Of a stretch of 64,000 nucleotides of DNA, positions 4,989 to 29,976 are shown in pieces. Made by a program: the position numbers and the translations under genes. Position 1 is the stretch's first letter. Each line of letters starts with the position of its first letter. The notes under the pieces were generated by a model. It saw only the letters and a list, made by a program, of their open reading frames with translations. It was not told the DNA's origin and made no database searches. The stretch is from Nitrospina sp. Its GTDB lineage: Bacteria; Nitrospinota; Nitrospinia; Nitrospinales; VA-1. Location of the stretch: positions 48,500-112,499 of the forward strand of contig JABHTG010000138.1 in the NCBI GenBank assembly GCA_018697205.1, given 5' to 3'.

Positions 4989-7115
4989 TTATTCTGCCAT
5001 CTGTGGAGTAGCTTGGGGAGCAACTTTATCAGTTTTTTTCTTTGACTTTGGATACTTTATGCCCAACCAGATGATGCAAGTCATTATGATAAAGAAAGTC
5101 CAAACGATAGTAGTTACATGGAAACCAGATTCTGCTAATGTTGGTGCAAATTTCTCCGGAGTGACGTCTTTGTAAACTTTGTAGACGTGCCAATTCATTC
5201 TAGAAAGTGAGCGTATAGTTCCCATCCAGCTCATTAACCATATATCAGCAAATCCTAGAAAGATGAGACAATAGATACCAAGTGGATTGATCTTACCGTA
5301 ATGAACTTTTCCTGTTTTAGTTGCTATTGTATAAAATATATAGTTTACAAAAGTCACTGTAACTAGTGCAAAGGCAGCCGTATTTTTAGAAATCATCAAG
5401 GCAAGAAATGCTAGATTGTCAGGTAATACCATTGATGAATCCATTCCAGGCTCAGGCATCATGGTTGCAAAGAAACGCCTTGGTGTGAACCAGATTGTAG
5501 CGGCAATTACAATCAGCACAAAACCAAATTTCATAGCAGGGAAAAAGCGTTCAGCCTTTTCTATCCGCTGCATACTTACCCACATATATATATTACTCAT
5601 ACTAAACATTGTCCCAACAAGCAGGCCTTGAACTAACATGAACATTGACTCACGATCAGACATGATATACATGCCGATGGTGGCATCGTACTGATAAATT
5701 TCACGGACAAAAATGTAGCCCATCGCTGGTAGTGGAATCATTATTGCGACACCTATAATGTTCCCTATATAACCGACCCAGTCGTAATATTCTTTTTCTT
5801 CTTTTTTTTCAGACCAAAGGTACATGTAAGCACCAATAACGCAAACCATATATCCGCCAAATGTTCCATTGCCGACGAGCCGATGGTAGTTAAGTGGCAT
5901 CCAACCAGCATTTGTTACCTTGCTCCATTCGCTTATATTGGTTATTTGGTCTAGAGGTACAGGTGGTGTTTGCATGAATGTAGTTGGGCCATCCAATGCC
6001 ACAAGCAACGATAACCCTAAAACGTTAAGAATCACTCCTAAAACAATGTGTCTACCCTTCTTGTTGCTTTTATTCAATGGATCCCATGAGTACACGTATA
6101 TGTACATGATGACCGTTTCTAATATGAAAAGGGTGGGATAAATTACCATGAAAAGAACAGGAAAAGACGATACAAGATAAGAGATGAAATCACTATAAAT
6201 CACTAACATCACGAATAGGAACAAACCGCCTGATAGGGCTGTAAAGCTATAGGCAAAACCTATAACTTTTGTGACCTCGTGCGCTAGACGTTCAAATTTA
6301 AAATCGGATTCGGCAAACATGATACCGTTGGCAAGAAGACCTCCAACTAAACCATTCACTGCGGCAAGAATTATTCCATCGGCATGTAATGTATCGACAG
6401 GTGTTAGGGCGCAGGCAATAACTGTTCCAACGATAGTTCCAATTACGCCTGAAACTTTTAAATTCATGCATCTGTGAAAATAATTCAGAAAACTAACAGC
6501 GAGAGCTCCAAAGGCGCAAGCCCACATACCAAATAGCACACCATGATGGATTCCAACAATTACCTCAAATGTTATTCCTATAACTACCCCTATAAGTACT
6601 CCAAGGAAAACATTGGACAAGATGATAGCTTTTCTAACACCTTGAGTACGGCGCGCTCCCATCACTTCCATGATTACAACGAACATTGGGCAACCAAGTA
6701 TAAAGGAAGCAAATAGGATATGCATTTGGGCCGCAAACCAGGTAAATTTGCGATTGCTTAGCCCAAGGAAAGATACTTCTTCAAATTCATGATCTTTTGC
6801 CGGGCCAATATCTGTTAAATATGAAAGGTCTTCGCTTTCTTCCTCGCCATCGGCAGATTCTTCTCCATCACCTTCTTCTTCTTCATCTTCTTCATCTTCT
6901 TCATCTTCTTCATCTTCTTCATCTTCTTCATCTTCTTCATCTTCTTCTTCTTCATCTGCATAAGCAGTTGATGGTCCATTTAAACTAAATAAGTATGATG
7001 CAGAAGCAGGTATGAAAGCAGGAGCCAAATGTCCCATTCCATAGAAAAATATCAGAGCAATGAGGATGGTGAATACAGAATTTTTGGTTTTTGGTTTTTC
7101 AGGCGAATGATACAT
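4989..7115 (-). CDS. Multi-TM cytochrome bd-like (CydA-related) oxidase subunit with an acidic N-terminal tract
   Basis: Many TM helices; FTWFAAQMHILFASFILGCPMFVVIMEVMG resembles the CydA-like first helix; immediately upstream of the cytochrome c gene on the same strand. Confidence 0.7.
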   Translation of the reverse strand: MYHSPEKPKTKNSVFTILIALIFFYGMGHLAPAFIPASASYLFSLNGPSTAYADEEEEDEEDEEDEEDEEDEEDEEDEEEEGDGEESADGEEESEDLSYLTDIGPAKDHEFEEVSFLGLSNRKFTWFAAQMHILFASFILGCPMFVVIMEVMGARRTQGVRKAIILSNVFLGVLIGVVIGITFEVIVGIHHGVLFGMWACAFGALAVSFLNYFHRCMNLKVSGVIGTIVGTVIACALTPVDTLHADGIILAAVNGLVGGLLANGIMFAESDFKFERLAHEVTKVIGFAYSFTALSGGLFLFVMLVIYSDFISYLVSSFPVLFMVIYPTLFILETVIMYIYVYSWDPLNKSNKKGRHIVLGVILNVLGLSLLVALDGPTTFMQTPPVPLDQITNISEWSKVTNAGWMPLNYHRLVGNGTFGGYMVCVIGAYMYLWSEKKEEKEYYDWVGYIGNIIGVAIMIPLPAMGYIFVREIYQYDATIGMYIMSDRESMFMLVQGLLVGTMFSMSNIYMWVSMQRIEKAERFFPAMKFGFVLIVIAATIWFTPRRFFATMMPEPGMDSSMVLPDNLAFLALMISKNTAAFALVTVTFVNYIFYTIATKTGKVHYGKINPLGIYCLIFLGFADIWLMSWMGTIRSLSRMNWHVYKVYKDVTPEKFAPTLAESGFHVTTIVWTFFIIMTCIIWLGIKYPKSKKKTDKVAPQATPQMAE
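6872..6955. repeat. 9-nt tandem repeat (cttcttcat)n encoding (DEE)n
   Basis: Consecutive cttcttcat units, read on the minus strand as gatgaagaa = D-E-E. Confidence 0.9.
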
Positions 7116-13658: not shown

Positions 13659-13724
13659 TGTAAGGTTCATATTTTTGAAATCACATCGTCTTTAAGTTTT
13701 TTTTCTTAAATTATCTATCCCTCC

Positions 13725-13779
13725 TGCACCAAATGTCTGAGTTGAAAGATTTACTTTCTTTCGGCTCGGACCCGGTGCA
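13725..13779. other. Extended intergenic hairpin
   Basis: TGCACC/GGTGCA outer stem enclosing GTCTGAGttGAAAG / CTTTCggCTCGGAC. Confidence 0.5.
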
Positions 13780-13795
13780 AAAAATTTTATTATTA

Positions 13796-24541: not shown

Positions 24542-24994
24542 ATGAGCATAACAAAAATTCATACTGCTGAAGATATTTTTAAAGGTCGATTAAGAGGCAA
24601 CCAATTAATGGCTAGTGGGATTCCTCTAACCTTTGAATCGGCTCGTTATTTATGGTCTTCGCCAAAAATGGTTGATGTTACTTGGTTGGATTTAGCAGAT
24701 AACCAATTAGGAGATACTGGTTTGATTGAGTTGTCCGAGTGCGAATTACTAAAAAATGTTCAATATTTAAACCTAAACCAAAATGGTATTACAGATGAAG
24801 GATTGACTAGTCTTTCTAAATCAAAGATTCTCACTAAACTTAAACGCCTTCATCTTAAAAAAAACTTACTTACAGGTCCAGGTATTGTGGATTTGTATAA
24901 TTCAGAAACTCTAAATGAACTTTCTACGTTTCAGATCCATGATGGTTGGACTTGCAAGAAAATGGATGGATGGCGATATAACCCTCAAGGTTGA
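24542..24994 (+). CDS. Leucine-rich-repeat protein
   Basis: WLDLADNQLGDTGLIELSECELLKNVQYLNLNQNGITDEGLTSL. Confidence 0.8.
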   Translation: MSITKIHTAEDIFKGRLRGNQLMASGIPLTFESARYLWSSPKMVDVTWLDLADNQLGDTGLIELSECELLKNVQYLNLNQNGITDEGLTSLSKSKILTKLKRLHLKKNLLTGPGIVDLYNSETLNELSTFQIHDGWTCKKMDGWRYNPQG

Positions 24995-24997
24995 TCT

Positions 24998-26233
24998 ATG
25001 CAGGAAAATGATGGCCCTTGCCAAATTCATGTTCAAATTTCAAGCACTGATCGGCCGGGGATATTAGCCGAAGCTTTAGAATCTATAGTTGCCTTTAACT
25101 GGGATGTTCTTGATATTAAGCAATTTGTTTTTAATGGGTTGCTTAATTTGTCGTTATTACTTGGCAGTAATAAGTCTAATTCTCTTCAGAAGTTGAAATT
25201 AGTATTAGATGAATGGGCAATAAAAAATCAAGTAACTTTGCAGATATTTCCTTGGGAAAAAGAACTTCGACCAGAAATTCCCTATAAATACCGTTCTGTA
25301 GTTACCTTGCTTGGCCCAAATCTTTCCTCAGGTGTTTTTCTTTCACTTTCTAAAACATTTTCTAGTCGCGATATTAATATTCTTCGTATCGAACAATTGG
25401 ATTATAGTGACCACCATGTTGTAGAGGTAGTTATAGGAAGCAAAGAAGACCACTCAACTGTAGATATCTTAAATGCTTTAGTTCAGTTTAAGGAAAAATT
25501 TTCTGTAGATATTGCAGTACAAGAAGACACGATGTTTCGGCGTAATAAAAGGTTAATCATATTCGATGCAGATATGACGTTTGTGCAGTGTGAAATAATA
25601 GATGAACTCGGTAAGTTGGCAGGTGTTGGTGATCGTATGGAAGAAATTACAAAACGGACTATGAATGGAGAACTCGATTTTAAGCTTGCTCTTTGTGAAC
25701 GTGTTAAGCTTCTTGCGGGGCTTTCAATTCTTAAATTAGAGGAACTATATAAGCGGATTCCTATTACCCCTGGTGCAGAGGATATTGTTCGTATTTTACA
25801 ATATCTAGGTTACCGCATCGGCATTGTAAGTGGCGGGTTTGATTTTTTCATAGACCGTATTAAAAATATTTATAAGCTTGACTATGGAATTTCTAATCAA
25901 CTTGAAATTGTAGATGGTGTGCTTACGGGTCGAGTTGTTGGAGATATTATAGATGCACGTGCTAAAGAACGTGCACTTATAACAATTGCAAATCAGGAAG
26001 GGTTTTCTTTAAAACAAGTTGTTGCCGTTGGGGATGGAGCTAATGATATTCATATGTTAGCTAAGGCAGGGCTTGGTATCGCATTTAATGCTAAATCTAT
26101 CGTTCAGAAGCATGCTAATGCTGGAATTAATCAGTCTAATCTTGAGCTTATTCTATATTTTCTGGGTATCAGTGGTAAGGAACTTCAGGAACTTCGTGAC
26201 TTATCCAAAGCACCTCCCAAATCTTCTTGGTAA
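24998..26233 (+). CDS. serB: Phosphoserine phosphatase with N-terminal ACT domains
   Basis: ACT-like N-terminus (STDRPGILAEALESI), HAD motif FDADMTFVQCEIIDELGKLAGVGDRMEEIT and GDGANDIHMLAKAGLGIAFNAK. Confidence 0.93.
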   Translation: MQENDGPCQIHVQISSTDRPGILAEALESIVAFNWDVLDIKQFVFNGLLNLSLLLGSNKSNSLQKLKLVLDEWAIKNQVTLQIFPWEKELRPEIPYKYRSVVTLLGPNLSSGVFLSLSKTFSSRDINILRIEQLDYSDHHVVEVVIGSKEDHSTVDILNALVQFKEKFSVDIAVQEDTMFRRNKRLIIFDADMTFVQCEIIDELGKLAGVGDRMEEITKRTMNGELDFKLALCERVKLLAGLSILKLEELYKRIPITPGAEDIVRILQYLGYRIGIVSGGFDFFIDRIKNIYKLDYGISNQLEIVDGVLTGRVVGDIIDARAKERALITIANQEGFSLKQVVAVGDGANDIHMLAKAGLGIAFNAKSIVQKHANAGINQSNLELILYFLGISGKELQELRDLSKAPPKSSW

Positions 26234-26493
26234 ATAACTATTACTCCCCATTTTAATCATCTCCCTTTTTAGATTGTCCATTAGGTAATTACTTATACGA
26301 ACCCCCCTTTTAACCTTATTTTTCTACATTTTAATTATCAATATTTTTTTCTCAATATAAATATCTAAACTTTGCCTAATCTTTAATTGATAATACATTT
26401 GACAATTAATTCATTAAATAGTAAATTATTAACAATTATCGTAGTAATTCAATTGTTTGTTAATACTAAAATTTATTTATTTAAGGTGAAAAA

Positions 26494-27030
26494 ATGGATG
26501 TTGATAAAAGTGCAGTAATTTTAGTCGGTCATGGTGGAATACCGAGTGATTTGCCAAGTGGAATTGTTGAAAAATTTATGAGGTTGCATAAATCAAGGAT
26601 TAAAGCTGGCACGGAGATTACTAGTGAAGAGATAGAACTTGATAACACTATTCGTAAATGGGAAAGAACCCCAGAGACAGATCCTTATAAGTCTGGGCTG
26701 GAAGATTTGGCAACTCATATGGAGCCTCTTTTGAAAAACTTTATTTTAAAAACTGCTTATAACGAATTTTGTTACCCGACAATAGAACAAGCCATTGAAG
26801 AGTTAGCTTCAACAAATAATGTATCAAAAATAATTCTGGTGACAACGATGATAACTAGAGGGGGATCACACTCAGAGCAAGAAATCCCGGAAGAGTTAGA
26901 AGAGTTACGAAAAAAATATAATAAAATAGAGATTCAGTATGCATGGCCATTCGATATAGATACTTTTGCATTATTTATGTCAACGCATGTCAAAATCCAT
27001 GATCATTTAACGGTAGTCGATAGTAAGTAG
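26494..27030 (+). CDS. CbiX/sirohydrochlorin-chelatase-like protein
   Basis: VILVGHGGIPSDLP...KIILVTTMITRGGSHSEQEIPEELEEL. Confidence 0.75.
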   Translation: MDVDKSAVILVGHGGIPSDLPSGIVEKFMRLHKSRIKAGTEITSEEIELDNTIRKWERTPETDPYKSGLEDLATHMEPLLKNFILKTAYNEFCYPTIEQAIEELASTNNVSKIILVTTMITRGGSHSEQEIPEELEELRKKYNKIEIQYAWPFDIDTFALFMSTHVKIHDHLTVVDSK

Positions 27031-27053: not shown

Positions 27054-27575
27054 ATGAATTTAGTTAAAATGCATAATTCGATTTTTTTTAAACCAATTAG
27101 TTTTATGAAAAGTGGTTTTTTATTTTTCACTTTTCTCATAATAATTTTTGTCAATCCTGTTTTAGCTTTAGATTGGAACGATGATGATTGGGTTCAAGGA
27201 GGCTGTCCTCCGGATATTTTTGGGACATGGGTTTCTAACGATGTTGACCAAGAAAATATAAAAACTTTAAAAATTAATCATAACAGAATTAGGATTTCTA
27301 ATAGCTTATCTCTTGATGAAGATTACTCTTTCGATAAAAATGATTTGGTATTAGGTAAAAAATTTATAGAGATTAATCTTACGTCTGGTTTAAATCATAA
27401 TGAAAATAGTTTCTATTTAAAAATACGGCCACATTTGATTGTGTTAGCTAATAATTTTGATCTTATGAATTCACCTACTACTAGTTGTTTTATTAAAGTA
27501 TTTAAGTTTAAGTCAAAAGAAAACTCTAAGTTTGGCAGGTATTTTGATTGGGAAATATATAAATTAAAAAAATAG
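27054..27575 (+). CDS. Exported hypothetical protein
   Basis: Signal peptide-like N-terminus FLFFTFLIIIFVNPVLALDW. Confidence 0.6.
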   Translation: MNLVKMHNSIFFKPISFMKSGFLFFTFLIIIFVNPVLALDWNDDDWVQGGCPPDIFGTWVSNDVDQENIKTLKINHNRIRISNSLSLDEDYSFDKNDLVLGKKFIEINLTSGLNHNENSFYLKIRPHLIVLANNFDLMNSPTTSCFIKVFKFKSKENSKFGRYFDWEIYKLKK

Positions 27576-27666: not shown

Positions 27667-27748
27667 GGGGAACTTAGGTGGGGCCTGGGGGCCCATTTAG
27701 TTTAAAGCCTTCTGTCAGGCATCTCAAAACTAAGCACCTATGTTCCCT
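27667..27748 (+). ncRNA. Candidate structured RNA element E1 (three-way junction)
   Basis: P1 GGGAACTTAGGTG/CACCTATGTTCCC (one mismatch), P2 GGGCC-TGGG-GGCCC, P3 TTAGTTT...GCCT-tctgtc-AGGC...AAACTAA. Confidence 0.5.
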
Positions 27749-27790: not shown

Positions 27791-28258
27791 ATGAAAAAAA
27801 AATACTTAGTAATTATTCTCTTTTTAATTTTAGTTGGTGCTGTTTCATTTAATAAAAATACTAAGACTGCTAAGACTCCAAATGACTATGTATCGTTAGG
27901 AAATAATAAGGGTATAAAAGGAGATCACTTTGGAGCTAGTAAAGCTTTTAAAGCAGCTATAGATATAGACCCTTACTATATTCCTGCCTACTTGGGACTT
28001 GGCATTTCCTACGGAAATTTGGGAAAGAATGAAGATGCAATTCAAGTCCTAATGCAAGGAATTAATTTGGATAAGAGTTATGACTATGTTCCTCAAATGC
28101 AAATGAGTATTGCTTCTATTACCTACGAAAAAATCAATGATGCAAAATTGGCAGTCACATTTTTAAAAAAAGCTCTACAGAATTATACAGACCAGGGAAA
28201 TTATGCTGGTGTAATAATGGCTGCAGAGAAGATAAAACAATTTGCTCCAGTTTCTTAA
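27791..28258 (+). CDS. TPR protein with N-terminal hydrophobic anchor
   Basis: TPR-like GDHFGASKAFKAAIDIDPYYIPAYLGLGISYGNLGKNEDAIQVL. Confidence 0.8.
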   Translation: MKKKYLVIILFLILVGAVSFNKNTKTAKTPNDYVSLGNNKGIKGDHFGASKAFKAAIDIDPYYIPAYLGLGISYGNLGKNEDAIQVLMQGINLDKSYDYVPQMQMSIASITYEKINDAKLAVTFLKKALQNYTDQGNYAGVIMAAEKIKQFAPVS

Positions 28259-28313: not shown

Positions 28314-28856
28314 ATGTTTAGGCTTGTTAGTTTAAGTTTTTTGCTTGTTGGTATCTGCCAGTTTTTTTATGCTTGTGCCACCATTCCTGCTAGAGAAGAT
28401 CCCCCTCTTCAGGTTGTTAACAAAGTGGACATTAATAAATACCTTGGTAAATGGTATGAAATTGCGCGATATCCCAATTGGTTTCAGGAAAATTGTTATG
28501 GGGTGACTGCCGAATATGAATTTGTTAATGATAGCGTGATAAAGGTAGTTAATAAGTGTAGGGATAGGCTCTTAAATGGGGAAATAAGAGAAGCTGTAGG
28601 AACAGCTCACATAACGGATTCTTCTAATAATGCAAAGCTTAAAGTAACATTTCATTGGCCATTTTATGGAGATTATTGGATTATTGATCTAGGTGAAGAT
28701 TATGAATATGTAGTAGTGAGTGAACCAAAACGACAGTACCTTTGGATTCTAAGTAGAAAACCAAGTATGGAGACTCCTAAATACAATAAAATCTTAGAAT
28801 CTCTTGCAAAACGAAACTTTGACATCGCTTTACTAAGTCTTACACCTCTAACGTGA
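28314..28856 (+). CDS. blc: Outer-membrane lipocalin
   Basis: Lipobox FFYAC; DINKYLGKWYEIARYPNWFQENC...YWIIDLGEDYEYVVVSEPKRQYLWILSRKP. Confidence 0.92.
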   Translation: MFRLVSLSFLLVGICQFFYACATIPAREDPPLQVVNKVDINKYLGKWYEIARYPNWFQENCYGVTAEYEFVNDSVIKVVNKCRDRLLNGEIREAVGTAHITDSSNNAKLKVTFHWPFYGDYWIIDLGEDYEYVVVSEPKRQYLWILSRKPSMETPKYNKILESLAKRNFDIALLSLTPLT

Positions 28857-28907: not shown

Positions 28908-28994
28908 ACGAAACTCCGGATAACGGCCTGGTGGCTTTCTATTTCTTTTGATACTTCCCTAAGGTTTTATCAGACTGGATAGCCGGAGTTTTGT
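28908..28994 (+). ncRNA. Candidate structured RNA element E2 (three-way junction)
   Basis: P1 ACGAAACTCCGG/CCGGAGTTTTGT (one wobble), P2 GGCC-TGGT-GGCT, P3 CTAT..TGATA/TATCA..ATAG. Confidence 0.45.
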
Positions 28995-29053: not shown

Positions 29054-29374
29054 TTGTTAACGCTAAAATTTATTATGTATTCTAAAATAAATAATCAATA
29101 TGCAGTGTTGTGCTATTCAAAAAATGCTGCTGATTGCTACCAAAAAGGAGAGTATTTTGATACTGAAGAAGAAGCAAAAGATTGGGTAGAAAATGAGTGC
29201 TGGATTTTTTCAGGAGAGGGGTGGATTTGCCTTAATTGTCATGACGCGTTTATGGGTAGTCTTACTTCACATCGTAAAAAACAGGGGAATGGACTTGATG
29301 GTGTTGATGGAAATATAGAGGCACATGACGGTTTAGATAATGATTTAGAGACAGGAATTGATATCGTAAGATAA
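29054..29374 (+). CDS. Hypothetical Cys-containing protein
   Basis: Cysteines in ENECWIFSGEGWICLNCHDAFMGS; no family recognised. Confidence 0.55.
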   Translation: MLTLKFIMYSKINNQYAVLCYSKNAADCYQKGEYFDTEEEAKDWVENECWIFSGEGWICLNCHDAFMGSLTSHRKKQGNGLDGVDGNIEAHDGLDNDLETGIDIVR

Positions 29375-29412: not shown

Positions 29413-29976
29413 ATGAAAAAAAATATACCATTAATAACAACTTTTATTTTAAGCGCTACATTATTTTTTACTTCTCTAGCTATTGCTAATACAAAAATTA
29501 ATAGCTCTGAAGTTCTGAAAATTGGTAAAGAAATTCCTAATGCGCAACTAAATAGATTTGCTCAATCTAATATTAAAATAGATGACCTGAAAGGAAAAAT
29601 TAAGATTATCAGTGTTGTACCACAATTGAATACACCGGTATGCGATAAACAAACACATCAGTTTAGTGAAACAAATGGAGGGTTGGATAAAGATATTGAC
29701 ATAATTACTATAAGTACAAATACCGCGCAAGGCCAGAAGAGCTTTGCTGAAAAAGCGAACATCAGTAACTTGATTTTTTTGTCCGATAGTCCTGAGTTCA
29801 ATTTTGGTAAAAGTACTGGTCTGCTAATAGAGGGAATGAATATGCTAAGAAGAACCGTTTTAGTTCTTGATGAGAAAAATATTATTCGGTATGTTGATTT
29901 TGTTCCAAGAGGTGGACTTCCAAATATTAAAGGAGCATTAAATGCAGCGAAAGAAGTCTTGTTGGGGAATTCTTAA
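29413..29976 (+). CDS. tpx: Thiol peroxidase Tpx with predicted signal peptide
   Basis: VVPQLNTPVCDKQTHQFSE (peroxidatic Cys), LSDSPEFNFGKSTGLLIEGMNMLRRTVLVLDEKNII. Confidence 0.9.
   Translation: MKKNIPLITTFILSATLFFTSLAIANTKINSSEVLKIGKEIPNAQLNRFAQSNIKIDDLKGKIKIISVVPQLNTPVCDKQTHQFSETNGGLDKDIDIITISTNTAQGQKSFAEKANISNLIFLSDSPEFNFGKSTGLLIEGMNMLRRTVLVLDEKNIIRYVDFVPRGGLPNIKGALNAAKEVLLGNS

Follow-up and report, generated by a model that had tools for sequence, protein, structure and literature searches.

The window, i.e. the complete 64,000-nucleotide stretch of Nitrospina sp. DNA that was analysed (genome G000), carries downstream of serB a run of genes in which two structured RNA elements, E1 and E2, lie between consecutive reading frames (Table 1). 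E1 starts 91 nt after the stop codon of the 'WNDEDW' gene and ends 42 nt before the start codon of a TPR gene, while E2 starts 51 nt after the stop codon of the lipocalin gene. The two elements are ~57% identical, and P1 of E2 is formed by ACGAAACUCCGG/CCGGAGUUUUGU. Elsewhere in the window, a minus-strand ORF (4989-7115) contains a 9-nt tandem repeat (6829-6970) that codes for an acidic low-complexity stretch.

Table 1. Genes and RNA elements of the locus, in window positions
Feature	Position	Strand	Basis or remark
serB	24998-26233		First gene before the 260-nt gap
Gap between serB and CbiX-like gene, 260 nt	26234-26493	.	G001 and G002 have a LitR/CarH-type MerR-B12 gene here
CbiX-like gene	26494-27030	+	First cluster gene after the lost regulator; Pfam CbiX 2e-11
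'WNDEDW' gene	27054-27575	+	Conserved cluster gene; no Pfam match; adjoins elements in G011, G019 and G039
E1, three-way-junction RNA	27667-27748	+	Fold; R3 match; covariation in A8
E1 P1	27667-27680 paired with 27735-27748	+	Predicted fold
E1 P2 hairpin	27681-27694	+	Predicted fold
E1 P3 arm	about 27696-27733	+	Predicted fold
TPR gene	27791-28258	+	Pfam TPR; orthologs in G001, G002 and G004 likewise behind an element
Lipocalin gene	28314-28856	+	Pfam Lipocalin_2 9e-45
E2, second, diverged copy between lipocalin and 'ECWIFSG' genes	28908-28994	+	R2, R3; ortholog at the equivalent G001 junction
'ECWIFSG' gene, downstream of E2	29075-29374	+	ORF conserved in G001, G002, G006 and G011
Redoxin gene, recurrent cluster member	29413-29976	+	Pfam Redoxin 3e-16; homologs adjoin elements in G019 and G039

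Folding of E1 reproduced the three-way junction that a first-pass annotation had drawn at this site, with the same ends and the same three helices: P1 of 7 + 6 bp with a single U-U mismatch, the P2 hairpin GGGCC-UGGG-GGCCC stacked on P1, and the P3 arm UUAGUUU/AAACUAA with GCCU/AGGC on top. The minimum free energy (MFE) is -36.4 kcal/mol, the centroid structure is identical to the MFE structure, and the comparison with shuffled sequences that had been suggested as a check gave a z-score of -3.27, with 0 of 200 shuffles folding equally well. The GC-rich fold had been said to stand out from its surroundings, and among the 90-nt segments of both strands of the 64 kb the one at E1 is indeed the most stable (-36.9 kcal/mol; mean -12.5, sd 4.8). 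Next in rank follow the plus-strand segments 13691-13780 (-33.6 kcal/mol) and 24871-24960 (-32.5 kcal/mol). A search of the window with Rfam 15 (4227 families) at gathering thresholds gave no match, and nothing credible appeared up to E = 10 for E1 and the family members G019a and G023c or up to E = 1 for 11 element loci, in line with the initial impression that E1 belongs to no recognised RNA family.

Since E1 is a single-copy sequence in its own genome by blastn, it would have stayed an orphan on this search alone. A DNA search of relatives yielded one weak match, in G001 upstream of the TPR ortholog, and the regions upstream of the TPR orthologs contain clear E1 homologs in three further species of the genus (G001, G002 and G004), in which letters of P1 have changed with the pairing kept and the loops conserved. 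A covariance model built from these four sequences (R1) led to a second copy in G002 and to a member in another genus (G013). Two other R1 matches were rejected, namely an A+T-rich direct repeat in G115 (L048) that was not recovered later and a probable coding-sequence match in G057 (L049) to which R3 does not match. Model R2, built from seven members, extended the family to further genera and matched E2, which was not included in it, with 29 bits (E 6e-5), so that E2 is a genuine member of the family, as had been supposed. In model R3, built from 17 members, both E1 (78.3 bits, E 4.8e-15 against the genome) and E2 (53 bits, E 6e-9 against the genome) are themselves training members. The reverse strand of E1 scores only as a mirror of P1.

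In total, R3 identified 24 elements in 15 of 77 Nitrospinota genomes, distributed over seven genera and two families; weak matches in G000 (C121, L061) and G030 (L064) were excluded. Outside the phylum no match at E <= 0.001 was obtained in about 310 genomes of a 387-genome search, the stricter first filter of which could let weak distant members escape. A scan of 84,980 species genomes with a degenerate pattern returned 17 stretches, among which R3 confirms only those from Nitrospinaceae or Nitrospina MAGs; it matches none of the DNA-pattern stretches from outside the phylum (Pseudomonas, Shewanella, Alteromonas and others), which we regard as chance occurrences. Copies within one genome are 57-71% identical in most genomes. 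G023 carries two tandem elements ~270 nt apart (L074 8000-8433), between the gene for a Cys/His-protein and a fatty-acid desaturase gene, and a third copy (L075 7933-8014) that is 93% identical to one of the tandem copies.

Changes on both sides are found in 15 of 27 pairs in an alignment of seven sequences (A5), in 22 of 27 in an alignment of 17 (A7), and again in 22 of 27 in the alignment of all 24 members (A8), where 90.6% of 626 cells are paired. A8 has 119 double-changed cells compared to 36 in shuffled and at most 26 in slid controls, and its covariation reaches 0.56 compared to 0.27 and at most 0.16, respectively. All three alignments were fitted to the model, which leans to structure, and the members are related; the slid controls and the anchoring of P1 at both ends argue against an artefact of fitting. 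The z-score is negative in 24 of 24 members (mean -4.1). When the outer 12 pairs of P1 are read without gaps from both ends, they comprise 251 Watson-Crick, 26 G-U, 3 A-C and 8 other cells. The excess of G-U over A-C in P1 has a p of 8e-6 if cells are treated as independent, which they are not fully, and over the whole element the counts are 71 and 11. Therefore, it is the RNA of the gene strand that is conserved. By both the compensatory changes and the strand asymmetry, the family is a conserved structured RNA, and E1 thus belongs to a so far undescribed RNA family of Nitrospinota with a conserved three-way junction. The first-pass annotation, which had read E1 as an unrecognised RNA of this shape and looked to Nitrospinota relatives for homologs with compensatory changes, is supported in this respect.

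The members are about 66-112 nt long and share a P1 of 12-14 bp with the approximate consensus GGGGAAYCCnGG paired with CCnGGRUUCCCC, an A-rich, GAAA-like J1/2 and an AUA-like J3/1. P2 follows RRCC-URGK-GGYY, with the U of the loop present in 22 of 24 members and a G at the third loop position likewise in 22 of 24, and is succeeded by UU. P3 is a variable arm that starts with CCAG and ends with CUGG; its tip varies, often carrying CUUCUG, and reads GCCUUCYGUC in the genus of E1. In the junction strands and the P2 loop, the sequence is conserved in addition to the structure. With flanking sequence included, P1 remains mostly paired in 21 of 24 members, and the flanked MFE folds of G039a and G039b lack P1 in the register tested. 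No consistent complement for a loop-loop pairing of P2 and P3 was found by eye. In one genus (L054, L062 and L063, about 1501-1612) P2 departs from the consensus (UUCC-GGGCUU-GGGAG), which perhaps reflects a change of function; there the Cys/His-protein gene ends inside the element and the gene beyond is a convergent purD.

The commonest feature of the family is its site just 3' of a co-directional gene and not in the 5' leader of one particular gene. Such a gene lies closely upstream in most loci, with G019a and G029b having an unclear or distant one, and the gaps between its stop codon and the element measure 6, 6, 10, 28, 38, 41 and 46 nt, among others. In G009 the element comes immediately behind the stop codon, and in G018, G028, G031 and G039a it overlaps the end of the upstream gene, so that a separate intergenic promoter has no room at these loci. 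Since several elements start within 10 nt of the end of the upstream gene or inside it, the elements are likely to be co-transcribed with the upstream gene and to have no promoter of their own. Downstream, 21 of 24 elements are followed by a co-directional gene, the start codon of which is mostly 19-100 nt away, and the remaining next gene, in G018, G028 and G031, is a convergent purD (named from sequence). Recurrent neighbours are genes for CbiX-like, WNDEDW, DUF4149 and lipocalin proteins, a small protein with a Cys/His-rich C-terminus, a TIGR01777-type epimerase (labelled by sequence resemblance), redoxin, SDR, desaturase, FAD amine oxidase, DUF1365 and a cyclopropane-synthase-like enzyme (methyltransferase). 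The link to the TPR gene that had been drawn initially holds within the genus of E1, where an element precedes this gene in four species, while the family-wide context is the cluster of a LitR-type regulator. A leader specific for TPR genes was rejected, since no element lies upstream of the TPR orthologs of other genera (L015-L018), and different genes follow the element elsewhere in the family.

The regulator in the centre of the cluster combines MerR with two B12-binding Pfam domains, i.e. it has LitR/CarH architecture, and is by homology probably a vitamin-B12 light sensor in Nitrospinota. It is encoded in 13 of 15 genomes with elements compared to 19 of 62 others (Fisher p 1e-4) and is located 0.03-4.1 kb from 14 of 24 elements, several other elements lying at contig ends. 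G001 and G002 have the gene order serB ortholog, LitR-type gene, CbiX-like gene. A tblastn search found no remnant of the regulator in the 260-nt gap of the window, and the rest of the window genome, which is 85% complete, yielded no LitR homolog. Since the elements are present at a locus from which the regulator is absent, they have outlasted it there. For Pseudomonas, light-inducible class II LitR clusters encode a short-chain dehydrogenase, an FAD oxidoreductase and the furan fatty-acid synthase UfaM (PMC9758184). The G023 cluster parallels this set with its SDR, FAD oxidoreductase and cyclopropane-synthase-like methyltransferase, and due to this parallel it is reasonable to regard the Nitrospinota cluster as a putative light or photo-oxidative regulon.

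The family probably represents an undescribed RNA control element. As the most plausible of the roles considered, if a tentative one, we propose that it is an intercistronic RNA that tunes how the mRNAs of a light or photo-oxidative regulon are processed or how stable they are. It would act post-transcriptionally inside polycistronic mRNAs of the LitR-type cluster, as a structured barrier or processing site through which the flanking genes may come to differ in stability and yield. An RNA-binding protein, a ribonuclease or a tertiary contact could engage the conserved P2 loop and junction, and operon output would thereby be tuned in the response to light or photo-oxidative stress. A role in processing or stability is the simplest one for an element that is stable, probably co-transcribed, intercistronic and conserved in structure. 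A precedent is the puf operon, whose protein stoichiometry is set by stabilising RNA structures together with RNase action (PMC11354728). Against an intercistronic role stand the three elements that precede a convergent purD, which cannot separate two cistrons there, and a simple stability hairpin is disfavoured since conserved junction and loop letters would be superfluous for one. It is also conceivable, if doubtful, that the family forms the post-transcriptional arm of the whole B12-photoreceptor (LitR/CarH-type) regulon, in which one factor linked to light or singlet oxygen, be it a protein or a small molecule, would bind the conserved junctions and set all operons jointly, the arm being kept even in species that, like that of the window, have lost the regulator gene from this locus.

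The strongest rival to an intercistronic control element is a trans-acting sRNA of the CcsR kind, derived from the 3' UTR. Cut from the upstream LitR-cluster mRNA, it would expose the P3 loop CUUCU, complementary to the Shine-Dalgarno-like AGAAG, as a seed. The site closely 3' of a same-strand gene in most loci agrees with this, as does the retention of GCCUUCYGUC at the P3 tip even in G004, where its apical pairs are lost, and several copies per genome in one stress-type regulon are also known for CcsR1-4 of Rhodobacter (PMC8307010). However, conservation centres on P2, the junction and P1 and not on a single-stranded seed, while the P3 tip varies more than any other part, accounts for the length range given above and has a short or missing motif in G009, G018, G023a and G027, so that we consider an sRNA of this type somewhat unlikely.

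Sequence conservation of the junction strands and the P2 loop, as in ligand-binding junctions, together with the frequent co-directional downstream gene, would also suit an in-operon riboswitch or attenuator in which a metabolite or signal bound at the junction regulates the gene that follows (DUF4149, TPR, SDR, desaturase or redoxin). P1 is, however, very stable and mostly formed in its flanks, no terminator or SD-sequestering platform is apparent, the downstream genes are heterogeneous or, in G018, G028 and G031, convergent, and no similarity to any Rfam riboswitch exists, which makes control by a ligand improbable. Still less probable is an elaborate intrinsic terminator that ends the upstream transcription unit. 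A stable, G+C-rich P1 after a stop codon, T-rich sequence right after P1 in G001a, G001b and G002a, and the copies between convergent genes in G018, G028 and G031 point in this direction, but T-rich sequence is confined to a minority, most members having no U-tract after P1 (GAAACTCT, GCTTGCAA, CCCACTTT, TGTACCGT), and a terminator would need no conserved three-way junction or loop sequence. With P1 stable in its flanks and no consistent U-tract, the element is rather a structure within the message than an ordinary terminator.

The typical consensus boxes at the ends of integron attC sites are RYYYAAC and GTTRRRY. A DNA-level repeat, be it a miniature mobile element, a REP-like repeat, an attC-like site or a protein operator, is the least probable of all, for although copies are found at several junctions and their presence differs between species (E2 is found in G000 and G001 and is undetected in G002, where the gap between the lipocalin and 'ECWIFSG' genes is 62 nt) and two G023 copies are 93% identical, the asymmetry of G-U over A-C has no reason in DNA, the other within-genome copies differ by ~29-43% with pairing kept, the elements always lie in one gene cluster, flanking target duplications were not seen by eye, and the ends of E1 (GGGGAAC/GTTCCCT) do not fit the R boxes, which are not conserved in the members either.

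Nitrospinota include major marine nitrite oxidisers. The RNA family described here shows strong covariation, has no counterpart in Rfam, is confined to this phylum as far as searched and is tied to one regulator cluster. It provides a testable hypothesis on how operon output might be tuned in the response to light or photo-oxidative stress, and its alignment and covariance model can be used for annotation. In searches of open-licence PMC papers, neither a description of this RNA family nor an RNA element tied to LitR/CarH regulons was found.

Among known systems, the cobalamin riboswitch (RF00174) was suggested by the B12-binding regulator near the elements and by the short string GGGAAUCCGGUGAAAA of some members, which we take to resemble the cobalamin core. 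It gave no match up to E = 10, and the Nitrospinota fold is much smaller and different. Three-way-junction riboswitches of Rfam such as those for TPP and purine share with the family a closing helix with two arms and conserved junction letters, whereas the Nitrospinota elements have no covariance-model match to them, no visible platform and no constant type of gene that they lead. From the CcsR RNAs of Rhodobacter the elements differ in their fold, in having no Rfam match and in lacking the CcsR motif CCUCCUCCC. Both are nevertheless structured, lie downstream of a coding gene, occur several times per genome and belong to a light or oxidative-stress regulon, a putative one in Nitrospinota, and in the photo-oxidative response CcsR1-4 arise by processing of a 3' UTR (PMC8307010). 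The intercistronic stabilising hairpins of the Rhodobacter puf operon (PMC11354728 and reference 20 therein) likewise place structured RNA between the cistrons of a polycistronic, light-related message, segments of which would thereby differ in stability, whereas the Nitrospinota family, known from sequence, is a conserved three-way junction that recurs at several operon sites in two families of another phylum.
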